Below, one piece after another: positions 29,482-48,935 of a stretch of 64,000 nucleotides of DNA. The notes under the pieces are model-generated. The model was not told the origin of the DNA. It saw nothing but the letters and a program-made list of their open reading frames with translations, and ran no database searches. Source of the DNA: Candidatus Choladousia intestinavium. Lineage in GTDB: Bacteria; Bacillota; Clostridia; Lachnospirales; Lachnospiraceae. Position 1 is the first letter of the stretch. Every line of letters starts with the position of its first letter. Made by a program: the position numbers and the translations under genes. Where the stretch lies: contig DVGK01000061.1 of assembly GCA_018712785.1 (NCBI GenBank), forward strand, positions 1 to 64,000, given 5' to 3'.

Positions 29482-31290
29482 CTATGAGAAAAGAGCTTCG
29501 AACTCCATACGGCCAATCTTCTCTTTTTCAATCAGAAGGGCCGCGCAGGCATGGAGAACGCTTTCATTATCCCGCAGAAGCCTTTTTGCCTCCTGATAAG
29601 CGCCGTCAATAATATTCTTCACTTCCTGGTCGATAACAGAAGCCACCTCTTCCCCGTAAGCTCTTGTATGGGCCAGATCTCTTCCGATAAAGACCTCGTC
29701 CCCGTCCGCGTCATAATTAATCAGGCCTACCTTTTCAGACATCCCGTACTTTGTCACCATCGCTCTGGCAATGGAGGTGGCCTGCTTAATATCCTGGGAA
29801 GCGCCGGTAGTCACGTCTCCTATCACCAGCTCCTCAGCCACCCGGCCTCCAAGGCTCACTACGATATTCTGAAGCATCTGGCCCTTGGTGTTAAACATCT
29901 CATCCTTCTCCGGAAGTGGCATGGTGTAACCTGCCGCTCCGCGGCCCGTGGGGATAATGGAAATCGTATGCACCGGTCCCACGTCAGGAAGAAGATGGAA
30001 TAAAATGGCATGGCCGGACTCATGATAAGCAGTGATCTTCTTTTCTTTGTCAGAAATCACCCGGCTCTTCTTCTCCGCGCCGATTCCAACCTTTACAAAA
30101 GCTCGGTTAATATCCTCCTGCTTCAGGTAAGCCCGCTGATCTTTGGCTGCGATGATAGCAGCCTCGTTCATCAGGTTTTCCAGATCCGCACCTGTAAAGC
30201 CCGCGGTGGTTCTGGCCACCTCTTCCAGATTTACATTGTCAGCCAGCGGCTTTCCCTTAGAATGAACCTTCAGAATCTCTTCCCGGCCCTTTACGTCCGG
30301 CCGTCCCACCGCGACAGACCGGTCGAAACGCCCCGGTCTTAAAATAGCGGGATCCAGAATATCCACCCGGTTGGTAGCCGCCATAACGATAATGCCTTCA
30401 TTTACACCGAAGCCGTCCATCTCCACCAGAAGCTGATTCAGCGTCTGCTCCCGCTCATCATGACCGCCTCCCATGCCGGTGCCTCTTCTTCTGGCCACCG
30501 CGTCAATCTCGTCAATAAACACAATGCAGGGCTGATGTTTTTTGGCCTCTTCAAAGAGATCCCGGACTCTGGACGCGCCTACGCCCACAAACATCTCCAC
30601 AAAATCCGAACCCGAAATGCTGAAAAAAGGAACCCCGGCTTCACCGGCGATGGCCTTGGCCAGCAGGGTTTTCCCCGTTCCCGGAGGGCCGACCAGAAGA
30701 ACTCCCTTGGGAATTCTGGCTCCTACCTGAATGAATTTCTGAGGATCCTTCAGGAAATCCACGATTTCCTCCAGCTCTTCTTTCTCTTCCTGCAGTCCGG
30801 CCACATCCTTAAAGGTAACCCGCTTGGCATCTGGCGTAATCATCCTGGCCCGGGTTTTCCCGAAGTTCATCATCTTGGCGTTGCCGCCTCCGGCCTGCCG
30901 GTTCATCATCATAAAGACGATCACCACCGCAGCTCCTACCACCAGGGTGGGGAGGAATACAGTGAGGAAGACACTGTCCCTTCTTACGCTCTCCATATTC
31001 GTCTCTATAGCCGAATATTCCATGAGCCGGTCCTGTTCTTCTTTCACATCCGCCACATTTACGTATTTCACATCCCCGTCTGTGAGAACCACCCGCAGCG
31101 TTCCGGTAGGCACCTCCTGATTGGGCGTAATATCCACCCGAACCACCTCTCCGTTCGTTAAGGCGTCCTCGTACTCCTTCTGGTTCCAGGTCTGGCTTGC
31201 CTCCAAACCGCCTCTGAAGGTCATCAGAAGCAGAAGAATGATCACCCCGATCACCAGATAAAAACCAAGTCCTTTGGCATTTCTGTTCAA
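29482..31290 (-). CDS. ftsH: ATP-dependent zinc metalloprotease FtsH
   Basis: [53 protein letters not shown] zinc motif. Confidence 0.97.
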
Positions 31291-31333: not shown

Positions 31334-31864
31334 TCATTCGCCTACGAATTCCACTATGCCCACAAAGGGAAGATTTCTGTATTTCTGCGCATAGTCCAGG
31401 CCGTAGCCAACAACGAATTCGTCCGGTATATTAAAGCAGGTATAATCCACCTCCACAGATGTGACCCGGCGCTCCGGTTTATCCAGAAGCGTACACAGCT
31501 TCAGACTCCGGGGATTCCTCTTCCCCAGAATTTCCATAAGATAGCTGAGGGTCCGCCCGGAGTCCACGATATCCTCCACAATCAGCACATCCTTCCCATC
31601 CAGAGGCTCATCCAGATCCTTGATGATCTTCACAACTCCGCTAGATTTCGTATCGCTTCCATAGCTGCTCACAGACATAAAGTCCATAGTCACGGGCACT
31701 GTAATCCTCTTGGCCAGTTCACACATAAAAAAAACACTGCCCTTGAGCACACAGATTAAATGAACCTCCCGGCCCGCGTAATCTTCACTGATCTGCTTCG
31801 CGACTTCCGCGATCCTGGCGTTTATCTCCTGCTCCTGCAGAAAAATCCTGACCTTTTCTCTCAT
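31334..31864 (-). CDS. hpt: Hypoxanthine phosphoribosyltransferase
   Basis: [40 protein letters not shown] motif. Confidence 0.95.
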
Positions 31865-33294
31865 GTTGCTTCCTCCTCAATCTGTATTTTCAGCACTCTG
31901 TATGTATTCTCTCTCACCTTCGCGGCCTCGCTGATCCGGTATCCTACGACCCAGAGAACATGGCTCCCCTGGGCAACCAGCCAAATCCGATCCCTCTGGT
32001 CTCTGGGAATCTTCAGATCAATCAGATAATCCTTCAGCTTTTTCCTGCCTCCGGACTCATTTACCACCAGATAGTCCCCCGTCCTGCGGGTGCGCAGACA
32101 GAGATTTTGATCTATTGTATCACATGCAAGCCATTTCGTATACTTTTTTTCTTCCAGAATTTTCTCCGGCGCAGTCTCGCCCCGGACCGGAAAGTCTACC
32201 TGCACCTTCATTCCCTGAAAATGCTTCACTCCCGCTTCCGCCAGCAGAAGCTCCTCCGTGTTCTTCCGGCTGCCCTCTGCCAAAGCCGGCGCCTTTCTAA
32301 AACGGACAGAGTCCTTTTCCCTGACCGCCCTTCCCTCGCCCGGAAAAAAGCATTCCCTGCCGCACGGAAGCTTCGTAAGCCTCTCCAGGGCTTCCAGATG
32401 TACGCTTCCCACATCTGTAAGACCGCCGGTACACTTCTTAACGCATCTGCGCAGAAGCTCTTTTTGTATCAGCTCCGGCTGCTGAAAAAAAGGCAGGAGC
32501 TTAAGCACCCAGGACTGCCCGCCCTGCCTCATCTCCGGGACGATACACTTTTCTTCCGCCAGGTCAGTCTGCACCTGCAGGTACTCCCAGACCTCCTGCA
32601 GCCTAAGGGCCGCCTGGGCAATATGCCGGGATGCCCGGGAATTCACCTGGCTTTCCAGCGCAGGCAGTATCCCAAGCCGGATTCTGTTTCTGGTATACTC
32701 CGTCTCCAGATTCGTCCGGTCCGTGCGCCATCCGATTCCTCTTTCCTCCAAAATCCTCTCGATCTCTTCCCTTGACAGAAAAAGAAGGGGACGTATAATC
32801 CTTCCCTGTACCGGTCGGATTCCTCCAAGGCCCTTCAGCCCGCTTCCCCTGGCCAGTCTGAAAAGGACGGTCTCCGCCTGGTCCCCCTGGTTGTGGGCCA
32901 CCGCCACCCTGTCTCCCTGCCAGAGCTTTCTTTCTTTCTCAAAGATCTCATACCGGACCTTGCGCCCCGCCTCCTCCAGGGAGATTTTTTCTTCCGCAGC
33001 GATTTTCTCCACTTTACAGTGTACCACCCTGCAGGGAATTTCCCACTCCCTGCAAAGTCCGTCTACCCACCGGGCGTCTCCCAGGCTCTCTTCACCCCGG
33101 ATTCCATGTTCCACATGAATGACTTTTAGGGAAAACGGAACCTGCTTTCTGTATTCCTTCAGCGCGTACAGAAGGCAGACCGAATCCGCCCCTCCAGACA
33201 CGCCGGCCAAAAGGCGCATTCCCGGGTGAATCATTTTGTATTCCTCAATGGTCTTAAAAATTCTCTCCAGTTCCTTCTTCCGCATCATATCCAT
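31861..33294 (-). CDS. tilS: tRNA(Ile)-lysidine synthase
   Basis: RLLAGVSGGADSVCLLYAL (SGGxDS PP-loop); VIHVEHGIRGEES; overlaps hpt start. Confidence 0.95.
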   Translation of the reverse strand: MDMMRKKELERIFKTIEEYKMIHPGMRLLAGVSGGADSVCLLYALKEYRKQVPFSLKVIHVEHGIRGEESLGDARWVDGLCREWEIPCRVVHCKVEKIAAEEKISLEEAGRKVRYEIFEKERKLWQGDRVAVAHNQGDQAETVLFRLARGSGLKGLGGIRPVQGRIIRPLLFLSREEIERILEERGIGWRTDRTNLETEYTRNRIRLGILPALESQVNSRASRHIAQAALRLQEVWEYLQVQTDLAEEKCIVPEMRQGGQSWVLKLLPFFQQPELIQKELLRRCVKKCTGGLTDVGSVHLEALERLTKLPCGRECFFPGEGRAVREKDSVRFRKAPALAEGSRKNTEELLLAEAGVKHFQGMKVQVDFPVRGETAPEKILEEKKYTKWLACDTIDQNLCLRTRRTGDYLVVNESGGRKKLKDYLIDLKIPRDQRDRIWLVAQGSHVLWVVGYRISEAAKVRENTYRVLKIQIEEEAT

Positions 33295-33314: not shown

Positions 33315-34796
33315 TTATTTCTCCCAAATCGTACCCACCAGAACGGTCATATCGTCCCTGGCCTGAAGCTTCTGCATCAGATATACCCGTTCCATCAGCC
33401 GTCTGGCATACTCTTTCGCGTTCTGGCAGGCGGCCTTCCTTATAACCTCCTTCATGCCTTCTTCCCCCTCCTCCTGGGAGAAGGCCTCCAGCACCCCGTC
33501 TGTCACCATAATCACCGTATCTCCCGGAGAAAGCTGTCGATGGACGCATTCATAATCCGCCTGCTGCATCACACCCGGAGGATAGGCGCTGGAATGAATC
33601 ACTTCAATCTCCTCACCGTGGCACAGAAAGGTGTCCGCCGCCCCTGATTTCATCAAATCACATTTTGCATTATACAGATCTATCATACATAAATCAATGG
33701 TAGAATACATCTGTTCCCGGTTCTGCAGAAGCATACAGGAATTAATCATCCGCACTGCCGTCTCCTGGGGAAAACCGGCTTCAAGGAACTGCTCAAGCAG
33801 CTCAATCACTTTTTCGCTTTCCCGGCATGCCCCGACTCCTGAACCCATGCCGTCCGCCAGGCTCATAACTACCTTTCCTGTTTCCTTCTGCAGCAGAGCG
33901 TAATTATCCCCGGACACCAGCTCCCCGGCCTTGGTGATCCTGGAAACGCCGCAGAACATCTGATATCTGGTATCCGGCACGAAATGGAAATTCGCATACT
34001 CCGGCAGCACCGCGCCGTGGCAGTTCCAGGATGGACACATCTTCTTCTGACAGCAATCCGAGAGAATCTCGCCCACTGTCCTGGCGGAAACACAAGATTT
34101 ACCTGTGCTTCTCAGAGTCAGATAAATCTCCGGCCTCTCCCCGTCGAAAAGAAATACCCGTATATTCCCCAGCTGGATGCCAAGATACTTGAATTCACGG
34201 CGAAGCTTTTTCCAAAGCTCCTGCTCAAGCTTCGGGACTCCCACGAATCCGTCTGCCAGCCGTCCAAGGAGCTCCGCCGTCCGGCACACCTGTTCCCCGG
34301 CAGCCGCCCTCTGCTCCAGCATCCGGTTTTTCCAAAGCAGCTCTCTTCTGGCTTCTTCATATTCCCGAGTCAAAGCTTCCGCTCCGTAATCCGGCTGAAT
34401 ACATGTCCCCTTCCAGGTCCGAATCAGTTTTTCCGAAACCTGTCCGCTCTCCTCCAGTTCACAGATCATCTCATAGAAAACGCGCCCTGTCTGAAAGTAA
34501 TGCTCTCCCCAGCATTCTTCCTCCCTTGAACAGTTCCGGCACAGTCTCTCCTGCACCTGCCGGAACATTTCTTCCAGCTCTCTGTCCCCCAGACGCTCTT
34601 TCTGGCACGGCAGCTCCTGAAAAAGTCTGGCCAGCCCTTCAAAAGCCTCCGCGTATCTTAGGATCTGTTCCTGCTCCGGAAGAGGATATACATCCCGGAT
34701 CCCATATTTCCCCGTTTTCTCTCTTTTCTGTATTTCCTTTCTCCCTGCCAGGAAGTTCTCCCGTATCTGCGAAATCGCGGTGAATAATTCACTCAT
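33315..34796 (-). CDS. SpoIIE-family PP2C phosphatase without membrane domain
   Basis: SLADGMGSGVGACRESEKVIELLEQFL...DTVIMVTDGVLEAF...ARDDMTVLVGTIWEK; Cys-containing central region ERLCRNCSREEECWGEHY; adjacent to tilS-hpt-ftsH as in the classic spoIIE locus; no TM segments in the ORF. Confidence 0.82.
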   Translation of the reverse strand: MSELFTAISQIRENFLAGRKEIQKREKTGKYGIRDVYPLPEQEQILRYAEAFEGLARLFQELPCQKERLGDRELEEMFRQVQERLCRNCSREEECWGEHYFQTGRVFYEMICELEESGQVSEKLIRTWKGTCIQPDYGAEALTREYEEARRELLWKNRMLEQRAAAGEQVCRTAELLGRLADGFVGVPKLEQELWKKLRREFKYLGIQLGNIRVFLFDGERPEIYLTLRSTGKSCVSARTVGEILSDCCQKKMCPSWNCHGAVLPEYANFHFVPDTRYQMFCGVSRITKAGELVSGDNYALLQKETGKVVMSLADGMGSGVGACRESEKVIELLEQFLEAGFPQETAVRMINSCMLLQNREQMYSTIDLCMIDLYNAKCDLMKSGAADTFLCHGEEIEVIHSSAYPPGVMQQADYECVHRQLSPGDTVIMVTDGVLEAFSQEEGEEGMKEVIRKAACQNAKEYARRLMERVYLMQKLQARDDMTVLVGTIWEK

Positions 34797-34907
34797 GTTC
34801 TGACCTCCCCTGCCCGTCTGCCCCGCCTCCCCGGCAGACAATCCGCTGTACGCATCCGTATAAGCAGCAGCATCAATTATACCACTTTTCCCCCGCAGTT
34901 TCTGTCA

Positions 34908-34992: not shown

Positions 34993-35298
34993 TTATTCTT
35001 CCGCCTTAAAGATAATCTCATCTTCATAGACAAGTCCCAGTTTATCTCTGGCGACCTTCTCAATAAACTCTGTGGAGTTCACGTAGTCCTTCAGATTCTC
35101 AATCTCTTCCGCCCGTATCTCCTGATCCTTGAGCTCCTGCTCCAGCTCTTCCTTTCTCTCTGTGTACTGCTGATTCTTCCGAATCAGATTTTGACTCTGT
35201 ACCAGAAGGGCAATCAGGAGCACCATCACCACAAAGGCAATCCCCATCATCCCCCTGCGGTTGCTCTTACTGGCTCTTCTTTTTCTTCTCTGTCTCAT
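34993..35298 (-). CDS. divIC: Septum formation initiator family protein (DivIC/FtsB-like)
   Basis: TM then coiled coil QNLIRKNQQYTERKEELEQELKDQE...YVNSTEFIEKVARDKLGLVYEDEIIF. Confidence 0.88.
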   Translation of the reverse strand: MRQRRKRRASKSNRRGMMGIAFVVMVLLIALLVQSQNLIRKNQQYTERKEELEQELKDQEIRAEEIENLKDYVNSTEFIEKVARDKLGLVYEDEIIFKAEE

Positions 35299-35764
35299 TT
35301 ATACTACCCCGTTTATCTCTTTTGTTCTTTTCTTTTTTTATTTTACCCCTTTTTTTCCTTAAATTCAATTCTTTTACAAGAAAATTCTCCAGCAGTATCT
35401 TTTTTGCCAGCTTTTTCGTCAGGCGTCCGGCCTTTTTTCCTGTCTCCACCGCAAGCTGAAGTGCTTTTCCCAGAACAAAGACCACCCAGCGGCTTACTGT
35501 TTTATGATAGAAAAAAGCGCCCAGAAAAATCCCGGCCGCCACGTAGCCCCGGATCACCCCGTCCGTTCCTGAAAAAACAAGGCAGAAGGTGAGAAAACCT
35601 GCTGTCATCCAGAAAAAAAAGTCCTCCAGAGAGAGCAGAACAATCCCGTGTGGAATCGCTCTGCGCAGAGAACGAAAGAGATCGTAGAACAGAGCCAGAG
35701 AAGCGCCGTGGAGAACAGAGAGCAGAAAAAGCCAGATCTCCTGACGGATCACGCTGCTCATCAT
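35267..35764 (-). CDS. yabQ: Spore cortex biosynthesis protein YabQ
   Basis: Four TM, FYDLFRSLRRAIPHGIVLLSLEDFFFWMTAGFLTF; between yabP and divIC. Confidence 0.87.
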   Translation of the reverse strand: MMSSVIRQEIWLFLLSVLHGASLALFYDLFRSLRRAIPHGIVLLSLEDFFFWMTAGFLTFCLVFSGTDGVIRGYVAAGIFLGAFFYHKTVSRWVVFVLGKALQLAVETGKKAGRLTKKLAKKILLENFLVKELNLRKKRGKIKKEKNKRDKRGSINETEKKKKSQ

Positions 35765-36039
35765 TGAAGAAGCCTCTTTATAAGGCTGCCCTTCTTAGCC
35801 GGACTGCTTCCCTGATAGCTGAAGCTGTCCGCCGCTCCCGTCAGCTCCACTTCTCCTTTATCCAGATCCAGCCGGCCAATATGCAGCTCCTTCCCTTTGA
35901 TCGACAGCATTCCCTGTTCTGTATCCAGAAGCACGCCGGAGTCATCGAAGGAAACCACCTCTGTCACGCCTGTGATGCTTCCCTGTTTTCTGTCTTTCCA
36001 CAGAATACTGTGGGGCTTAATGCTTTTCTTTTCTTCCAT
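35761..36039 (-). CDS. yabP: Sporulation protein YabP
   Basis: HSILWKDRKQGSITGVTEVVSFDDSGVLLDTEQGMLSIKGKELHIGRLDLDKGEVELTG. Confidence 0.9.
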   Translation of the reverse strand: MEEKKSIKPHSILWKDRKQGSITGVTEVVSFDDSGVLLDTEQGMLSIKGKELHIGRLDLDKGEVELTGAADSFSYQGSSPAKKGSLIKRLLQ

Positions 36040-47417: not shown

Positions 47418-48146
47418 TCACTCTCCTGCATGCCGCAGTTTTCTGAGAATCCTTTTCTCCGCCCTGGAAACCTGAACCTGGGTCATGCCCAGGCGCTTCG
47501 CCACCTGAATCTGGGTCTGATCCTGGAAATACCTGAGGCGGATAATCTCCTGCTCCCGCTCGTCCAGAAGATTTAAAAGCTGGTTCAAAAGCATTCTGTT
47601 CAGGAGCTCCTCATTTCTGTCCTTCTTGTCCGGCAGACGGTCGGCCAGCAGAACCGGCGTCCCGTCCCCGCTGTAGATGGTCTGGCTCAGGGACTCTACC
47701 TCCGATACAGCTTCCATAGCCAGCACCAGCTCCTCCGGACAGAGTCCGGCTCTGCTGGCAATCTCTTCCACTGTAGCTTCCGAGCCTTTTTCCTTCTCAA
47801 TGGCTTCCCTGGCTCTGCTCGCCTTGGCCGCTGCCTCCTTATGCAGGCGGCTGACCTTAATCATTCCGTCATCCCGGAGAAACCGTCTGATTTCGCCGGT
47901 AATCATAGGAACCGCGTAAGTGGAAAAGCATACGCCAAAGGATGTATCAAAATGGTCAATGGCCTTCAGAAGCCCGATGCATCCAAGCTGTATCAGATCT
48001 TCCTTTTCGCAGCCCCTTCCCCGGAACCGGCGCACCACCGCGAATACAAGGCCCATGTTTTCTTCTACCAACTGTTCTCTGGCTTTTTTATCCCCTTCGT
48101 GTACCTGTTTAATTAACGCAAGGGTATGCTCCATCCGCCAGACCAC
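47418..48146 (-). CDS. sigF: RNA polymerase sporulation sigma factor SigF
   Basis: LVEENMGLVFAVVRRFRGRGCEKEDLIQLGCIGLLKAIDHFDTSFGVCFSTYAVPMITGEIRRFLRDDGMIKVSR; follows spoIIAB. Confidence 0.95.
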   Translation of the reverse strand: MVWRMEHTLALIKQVHEGDKKAREQLVEENMGLVFAVVRRFRGRGCEKEDLIQLGCIGLLKAIDHFDTSFGVCFSTYAVPMITGEIRRFLRDDGMIKVSRLHKEAAAKASRAREAIEKEKGSEATVEEIASRAGLCPEELVLAMEAVSEVESLSQTIYSGDGTPVLLADRLPDKKDRNEELLNRMLLNQLLNLLDEREQEIIRLRYFQDQTQIQVAKRLGMTQVQVSRAEKRILRKLRHAGE

Positions 48147-48586
48147 TACCTTTCAAATTTATTTTCCCGTCCGATCTGCCTGGTCATCGTTACGCAGGTG
48201 CCCTTCCCGACTTCCGAATCCACCTTCAGGGTATCCATAAACGCTTCCATAAACGCGAATCCCATACCGGCCCGGTCGCATTCTTCTTTCGTAGTAAACA
48301 TGGGTTCCATAGCTTTTGGGATATCTTCGATTCCCTTTCCCGTATCCAGGACCTTTACTTCCAGGGTCTGCCCCGTAATTCTGCATTCAACCACCACTTT
48401 TTTTACTGCTCCCTCATACCCATGGATGATGGCGTTTGTCACGGCCTCAGACACAGCCGTTTTTACGTCCGCCACCTCTTCCAGAGTGGGATTGAGCTGT
48501 GTCATAAAGGCTGCCACAGCCACCCGGACAAACCCTTCATTGCAGGAGCGGCTGTCAAACTCCAGTCTCATCTCATTTTGCTGCAT
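48146..48586 (-). CDS. spoIIAB: Anti-sigma F factor
   Basis: NEMRLEFDSRSCNEGFVRVAVAAFMTQLNPTLEEVADVKTAVSEAVTNAIIHGY; HATPase motifs. Confidence 0.95.
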   Translation of the reverse strand: MQQNEMRLEFDSRSCNEGFVRVAVAAFMTQLNPTLEEVADVKTAVSEAVTNAIIHGYEGAVKKVVVECRITGQTLEVKVLDTGKGIEDIPKAMEPMFTTKEECDRAGMGFAFMEAFMDTLKVDSEVGKGTCVTMTRQIGRENKFER

Positions 48587-48599
48587 GTATCTCTCCCCC

Positions 48600-48935
48600 T
48601 TATAATAAATTTAAGCGCTGCGGCATACCTTCATAAATGTCGATCACTTTATATACCCCCGATAGGGTCAGTATTCTGCGCATTCTTTCATTGACTCGGA
48701 CAGCGATAACCGTTCCACCCATAAAGCGCATGGTTTTATATCTCCCCATAATCATCCCGACTCCGGAGCTGTCCATAAAATCCGTCTGTTCAAAATCAAA
48801 CACCATACGCCGGATGTTTTTTCTTCGCAGAATCCGGTCTGCCTCATACTGTATTCCCTCTGCATTATGATGATCGATCTCCGCCGGAAGGTGAATGGTA
48901 AGGGTGGTCCCGGCAATCTCAAATGGCTGTCTCAT
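48600..48935 (-). CDS. spoIIAA: Anti-sigma F factor antagonist
   Basis: LTIHLPAEIDHHNAEGIQYEADRIL...MVFDFEQTDFMDSSGVGMIMGRYK STAS domain. Confidence 0.95.
   Translation of the reverse strand: MRQPFEIAGTTLTIHLPAEIDHHNAEGIQYEADRILRRKNIRRMVFDFEQTDFMDSSGVGMIMGRYKTMRFMGGTVIAVRVNERMRRILTLSGVYKVIDIYEGMPQRLNLL

Follow-up and report, generated by a model that had tools for sequence, protein, structure and literature searches.

Can σF be activated in the correct compartment by a SpoIIE that has no membrane domain? SpoIIE is the model case of septum position being turned into a cell-type decision. As generally accepted, the mechanism depends on three things: the membrane domain of SpoIIE, the protein's passage from the divisome to polar DivIVA, and its proteolysis via an N-terminal tag. 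The question is raised by a gene in the window, that is, the whole stretch of 64,000 nucleotides analysed here. The original prediction held that a SpoIIE-like gene at the usual locus encodes only ~490 aa, comprising a Cys-containing central region and a PP2C domain behind a hydrophilic start, that the membrane domain is missing, and that, if this is the only such phosphatase, compartment-specific σF activation must proceed without SpoIIE membrane anchoring. The gene and its parts are as follows.

33315..34796, (-) strand: spoIIE, membrane-domain-free form, 493 aa (ORF, Pfam and NCBIfam matches, hydropathy)
34803..34808, (-) strand: perfect Shine-Dalgarno sequence GGAGGT, 6 nt before the spoIIE ATG (sequence)
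34671..34796, (-) strand: residues 1-42, hydrophilic stub (MSELFTAISQIRENFLAGRKEIQ...) (alignment with relatives)
33972..34670, (-) strand: residues 43-275, region II, with a long helix (135-185) and the invariant Gln169 (Pfam, alignment, model)
33318..33971, (-) strand: residues 276-493, PP2C phosphatase domain, the C-terminal 218 residues (Pfam, catalytic residues)
33645..33647, (-) strand: codon of Ser384, equivalent of B. subtilis V697 (alignment)

The ORF is complete, starting from an ATG at 34796 on the minus strand, and its GGAGG-spacer-ATG start is common to nearly all congeners. Residues 17-294 match positions 330-605 of 605 in the Pfam model SpoIIE_N (2.5e-25), and residues 307-487 match the SpoIIE PP2C domain (3.5e-31). 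The NCBIfam model TIGR02865 (spore_II_E) is matched at positions 313-763 of 764 with 331.7 bits (E 7.9e-99). The equivalog cut-off of 490.8 bits is not reached because the N-terminal 312 model positions (41% of the model), which hold the 10-helix membrane domain, are absent. A confident AlphaFold model of the protein (pLDDT 81.5) found its best PDB fold matches in the B. subtilis SpoIIE entries 5UCG and 5MQH. In that organism, region II is regulatory and serves in oligomerisation and FtsZ binding. No TM segment was detected in the window protein by Kyte-Doolittle hydropathy, the best N-terminal 19-residue mean being 0.11. A TM domain concealed 5' of the gene by a frameshift was rejected, since upstream of the ATG the frame continues for only 36 codons, which are hydrophilic and include no hydrophobic stretch; nor could any frame in the 196 bases separating divIC from the spoIIE start encode the missing ~300 residues. 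The predicted architecture therefore held, including the Cys-containing region, but the CxxC...CW motif of this region also occurs in other Lachnospiraceae SpoIIE forms, so it is not special to the membrane-free variant; it is present in B. subtilis SpoIIE as well.

The gene lies in the usual order yabP-yabQ-divIC-spoIIE-tilS-hpt-ftsH, with the following neighbours.

35761..36039, (-) strand: yabP (locus order and conservation)
35267..35764, (-) strand: yabQ (Pfam, NCBIfam)
34993..35298, (-) strand: divIC, the usual upstream neighbour (Pfam, locus comparison)
31861..33294, (-) strand: tilS (ORF, locus comparison)
31334..31864, (-) strand: hpt (HPRT) (ORF, locus comparison)
29482..31290, (-) strand: ftsH (ORF, locus comparison)

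Among 96 membrane-free loci, 89 have DivIC on the upstream side and 90 have TilS on the downstream side, the same arrangement as in anchored forms. The possibility that would have refuted the prediction, a general or stress-type PP2C of the RsbU or Stp1 kind, was not borne out. Rival PP2C models score far lower on the protein (Stp1 25.1 bits and SiaA 25.9 bits versus 331.7 bits for spore_II_E), and the gene tree, the locus and region II all place it in SpoIIE.

A search of the window genome (G000; 2.97 Mb, a 160-contig draft, 90% complete) for a second SpoIIE with TM helices returned one TIGR02865 match only. The remaining PF07228 matches, two other PP2C proteins (L002 and L003), were rejected as candidates. 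L002 is a Stp1/PrpC-type phosphatase beside a PrkC-like kinase. At L003 (C83:311-2560), an unrelated PP2C with an N-terminal TM helix precedes a trypsin-like protease whose C-terminus is FHA-like, in what appears to be a small signalling cassette. The draft state of this genome is the one point in favour of an assembly or annotation artefact, or of a missed full-length second copy, an explanation that we consider all but excluded. The congener G152 (99% complete) also has one SpoIIE, membrane-free, and no membrane domain was found elsewhere in the genus, so the incompleteness of the window genome is unlikely to hide a second copy. All 30 SpoIIEs read in the window genus (the window and 29 other loci; 47 species) were membrane-free, and the form also occurs in isolates from other genera, including a closed genome (L236). 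Two congeners (G227 and G230) yielded background PP2C matches only, and a third (G203) yielded no more than a fragment at the start of a contig; the remaining genus genomes, with frames of 430-604 aa, lie outside the 30 that were individually read. Furthermore, a profile built from 12 SpoIIE membrane domains found nothing in G000 or G152 and, across the 47 genus genomes, only three weak partial matches at noise level. The domain has therefore not moved into another gene, and there is no hydrophobic upstream extension of the frame either.

What remains of the N-terminus in the genus is a stub with a median length of 42 aa, down to 10-17 aa in several congeners. Residues 1-42 of the window protein align with the single TM helix of its nearest relatives (M.EFIIAVLIVS.LW); compared with L035, the start motif is similar, with hydrophilic MSELFTAISQIRENF in the window against TM-type MSEFIIAVLIVSLLW. 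An amphipathic membrane-binding helix as a substitute for the lost anchor was rejected, as hydrophobic moments were not above those of shuffled stubs (window p 0.24), and the congeners keeping only 10-17 stub residues speak against it too.

The predicted presence of the σF partners at 47.4-48.9 kb also held.

48600..48935, (-) strand: spoIIAA, the substrate side, with the MDSSGVG phosphorylation motif (TIGR02886, 103 bits, slightly below the cut-off)
48146..48586, (-) strand: spoIIAB (TIGR01925, above the cut-off)
47418..48146, (-) strand: sigF (NCBIfam)

The sporulation gene spoIVA was found in both the window genome and G152, and it is carried by 56 (95%) of the 59 genomes whose SpoIIE is membrane-free, so this form accompanies sporulation genes. 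SpoIIR, the σF-made signal that triggers σE, is encoded in 44 of 47 congeners. Two complete-looking SpoIIR matches occur in the window genome (C119:2066-2440 and C72:3804-4199). The window spoIIE is under strong purifying selection: compared with a sister species whose protein is 90% identical, dN/dS is 0.06 overall, with 0.03 for PP2C, 0.07 for region II and 0.34 for the N-terminal stub. The equivalents of D610, D628, G629 and D746 were invariant in 240 of 240 SpoIIEs compared, and that of D795 in all but one; the catalytic centre of the window protein, with all five conserved, is intact. These results bear on the rival view that the lineage has ceased to sporulate and that its spoIIE is a decaying remnant. 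In its favour, the membrane-free form falls below the NCBIfam equivalog cut-off, its N-terminus is eroding, and some Lachnospiraceae have no spoIIE. Against it stand the low dN/dS, the full set of catalytic residues and the presence of spoIVA, spoIIR, spoIIAA, spoIIAB and sigF, and we regard it as very unlikely. Since the only SpoIIE is membrane-free, the organism, if it sporulates, would have to activate σF with no membrane domain on SpoIIE; the last part of the original prediction is supported under that condition, although a membrane tether through another protein is not excluded. That the window protein is a soluble σF phosphatase appears very likely, its activity on SpoIIAA-P being inferred in the absence of biochemical or sporulation data.

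Beyond what had been predicted, the membrane-free trait proved to be family-wide, and DivIVA was missing too. In 200 Lachnospiraceae genomes we read 131 SpoIIE loci, which fell into four forms: an N-terminus of ~320 aa with 8-10 TM helices (29), one of mostly ~163 aa with 2-5 TM helices (26), one of ~45 aa with a single TM helix (17, several Blautia among them), and one of mostly 6-60 aa without any TM helix (59). TM helices were counted by hydropathy (19-residue windows, threshold 1.5), which undercounts weak helices, and the counts are sensitive to hydropathy thresholds and to Pfam sensitivity. Mapped on an unrooted tree built from the C-terminal part that all forms share, the 0-TM state requires 11 changes, at least 6 of them forced by strongly supported branches, versus 43 for shuffled labels. 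On this gene tree, the membrane domain was lost repeatedly within the family; as the tree has no root, the direction is read as loss because full-length proteins are the norm in B. subtilis and other Clostridia. The window SpoIIE and its congener group with the single-TM SpoIIE L077 (SH-aLRT 99), and the window genus is nested inside a single-TM clade. Carriers of a membrane-free SpoIIE include Faecalicatena contorta, Faecalicatena orotica, Mediterraneibacter glycyrrhizinilyticus, Muricomes intestini, Sellimonas caecigallum, Extibacter muris and Hespellia stercorisuis.

Outside the family, in a class-wide sample, essentially all of the ~150 strongest matches begin near model position 1 in ORFs of ~750-930 aa. 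Nearly all of the 32 weaker matches checked were also in ORFs of >700 aa, with one genus showing a ~500-aa form and one gene being split. In another family (f16), SpoIIE-like proteins of ~500 aa (L278 and L279, in G294 and G257) are encoded directly after an EF-Tu-like gene, off the usual spoIIE locus. L271 (G310, another family) and L027 (G097, C20:848-3128, Lachnospiraceae) each have SpoIIE divided between two overlapping ORFs, the membrane half in one and region II with PP2C in the other; these are frameshifts or natural split genes. Only 6 of the 200 Lachnospiraceae genomes pass the 490.8-bit TIGR02865 cut-off, and 167 have a match, some of these weak and to other PP2C proteins. With 131 SpoIIE loci read, automatic annotation will therefore under-call SpoIIE and, with it, sporulation potential.

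In Bacillus, DivIVA anchors SpoIIE and holds it at the cell pole. None of the 47 congeners had a DivIVA match over the cut-off, the weak matches sitting in large frames of 690-860 aa, and a residual DivIVA anchor for the membrane-free SpoIIE is thereby rejected. In the wider family, a clear DivIVA (E below 1e-15) was found in only 44 of 200 genomes. Where it is present, as in G054, the gene order is yggS-sepF-ylmH-divIVA-aroB; in G000, G152, G220, G207, G142 and G102, aroB directly follows ylmH (yggS-sepF-ylmH-aroB), and the two leave no space for a gene between them. Loci without divIVA in this arrangement, from the window genus and some relatives, are L286 (contig C125 of the window genome), L282, L285, L287, L281 and L280, to be compared with L283. 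SepF is encoded in the window genome. DivIVA was present in 22 of 29 genomes with full-length SpoIIE versus 12 of 102 with reduced forms (a strong overall association, Fisher p 7e-11). In independent sister comparisons, however, the two losses did not coincide (0.3 pairs the same way and 0.6 the opposite way, of 6), so the association reflects co-occurrence at the clade level and coupling is not proven. With exceptions both ways, a single coupled event is unsupported, and the two losses fall in overlapping, non-identical lineages.

Switch residues offer a further rival explanation. The window protein has Ser at the V697 equivalent, as do all 29 further congeners that were read; in membrane-free or reduced SpoIIEs of other lineages, Ala is frequent there. 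Changes V697A and V697F lock B. subtilis SpoIIE in an active state (PMC4714977, PMC5468089). V697A leaves the B. subtilis enzyme deregulated and abolishes compartment specificity. A soluble SpoIIE might be unlocalised altogether; forespore specificity would then rest on other levers, namely a retuned switch, the small volume of the forespore, proteolysis, or gene dosage once the septum has formed. The small residues at this position are in keeping with such a scheme, as is the retention of the switch-contact residue Q483 as Gln169 in the window protein. Against it, the V697A phenotype in B. subtilis is destruction of specificity, and the association between a small residue and reduced TM was not significant once relatedness was allowed for (independent pairs ~3 to 0.2 in favour, median p 0.25). 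Compensation at this position hence remains suggestive only. Close spoIIA-spoIIE linkage is not general across the window genus, which likewise counts against this rival, and conserved linkage as an explanation was rejected. Overall, an unlocalised enzyme remains a possibility. Further, the K356 equivalent is Gln and the T353 equivalent is Glu in the window protein. The mapping of K356, T353 and Q483 relies on a B. subtilis sequence that fits eight residue numbers given in publications and, over its C-terminal half, a PDB chain.

The reading that we favour as likely overall is that this gene encodes the sole SpoIIE and a true ortholog, whose membrane domain was reduced stepwise to leave a soluble phosphatase acting on the σF pathway and possibly captured at the division ring. 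Its shown parts are the single copy, the usual locus, the intact catalytic centre, purifying selection, the genus-wide and repeated family loss, and the absence of DivIVA from the genus. In this proposal, the membrane domain would have eroded in steps from 10 TM helices to ~4-5, to 1 and to 0, and the soluble PP2C would dephosphorylate SpoIIAA-P and so free σF. In line with this, a soluble B. subtilis SpoIIE fragment (320-827) dephosphorylates SpoIIAA-P in vitro (PMC4714977). With no membrane anchor and no DivIVA, only protein contacts are left to place the enzyme, if it is placed at all; the simplest would be those between region II and FtsZ, and region II of B. subtilis does mediate oligomerisation and FtsZ interaction (PMC8192124, PMC3517971). 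Such contacts with the FtsZ ring may bring soluble SpoIIE to the polar division site, where SepF, a membrane-binding FtsZ partner, could still tether the ring to the membrane. SpoIIE would then be switched on at the ring by oligomerising, replacing both membrane anchoring and the hand-over to DivIVA at the pole, possibly with an adjustment of the activity switch at the V697 position (Ser in the window genus).

The capture step is the least secure, and without localisation data we hold the inference to be no better than evenly balanced. In B. subtilis, deleting region I or swapping it for two MalF helices gives septa like those of a spoIIE null (PMC8192124); region II therefore does not suffice for recruitment on its own in that species. 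K356 is needed in that organism for oligomerisation and association with DivIVA, and the Gln at its equivalent possibly counts against recruitment or oligomerisation through region II, subject to the mapping noted above. A set of even shorter 0-TM SpoIIEs, mostly ~370-430 aa and in at least two separate clades, has the first ~100 residues of region II short or strongly diverged (L083, L094, L103, L105, L108-L111, L115, L117, L119, L123-L126, L128 and L130-L133). This second set weakens region-II recruitment as a universal model.

Alternatively, an unidentified membrane protein, for instance one from the divisome or the sporulation machinery, may stand in for the TM domain and tether soluble SpoIIE to the membrane of the septum or forespore. 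The conservation of the cytoplasmic half is compatible with such a tether, and the split genes in L271/G310 and L027/G097 imply that the two halves may act in trans. Against it, no membrane-half homologue rose above noise anywhere in the genus, the known polar partner DivIVA is absent, and the spoIIE locus has no new conserved membrane gene, its neighbours being those of anchored forms. This tether cannot be dismissed, and we rank it as possible.

Under the favoured reading of a soluble, sole SpoIIE, the window organism and its sampled congeners would have to choose the spore compartment by a non-textbook route, provided that they sporulate; both sporulation and localisation are inferred. A bolder reading is that several gut Lachnospiraceae lineages independently dismantled both the SpoIIE membrane domain and DivIVA, yet keep forespore-specific σF through a cytosolic phosphatase with a retuned switch. 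We do not quite lean towards it; if true, sporulation's first cell-fate decision would be solved here in a different way. In any case, an entire gut genus has neither the membrane domain nor DivIVA, the first two elements of the accepted SpoIIE mechanism, and loss of the membrane domain has occurred repeatedly in one of the gut's commonest spore-forming families. Cultured members with 10, 4-5, 1 or 0 TM helices, with or without DivIVA, represent natural experiments that may separate the needed from the dispensable parts. At a practical level, curated full-length models with the 490.8-bit cut-off miss SpoIIE in most Lachnospiraceae.

Our search of the open literature (subscription papers were outside the scope) turned up no report of a SpoIIE lacking the membrane domain, or of Lachnospiraceae having lost DivIVA. 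Galperin 2012 listed spoIIE for all spore-formers without discussing the membrane domain. The window protein resembles B. subtilis SpoIIE in its locus, region II, PP2C domain, catalytic residues and Q483, and the SpoIIAA, SpoIIAB and sigF partners are present. It differs from that 827-aa protein, whose region I has 10 TM helices, in having no region I, in the absence of DivIVA from the genome, and in the Ser, Gln and Glu at the V697, K356 and T353 positions. The full-length SpoIIEs of other Clostridia and some Lachnospiraceae (L004-L018) belong to the same family and, where flanks were read, occupy the same locus, but they keep ~320 N-terminal residues with 8-10 TM helices, whereas the window protein has a 42-residue hydrophilic stub. 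The single-TM SpoIIEs of Blautia and of the window genus's nearest relatives (L077, L031 and L019), the nearest ones being 39-47% identical in the alignment, have an N-terminus of equal length (~45 aa) and a similar start motif; theirs is a TM helix, while that of the window protein is hydrophilic. RsbU/RsbP and Stp1-type PP2Cs share the PP2C fold, but they lack region II and lie at different loci. By descent, locus, region II and catalytic domain, the window protein is a SpoIIE that fails the membrane-domain criterion, and it represents a new architecture in a known family.
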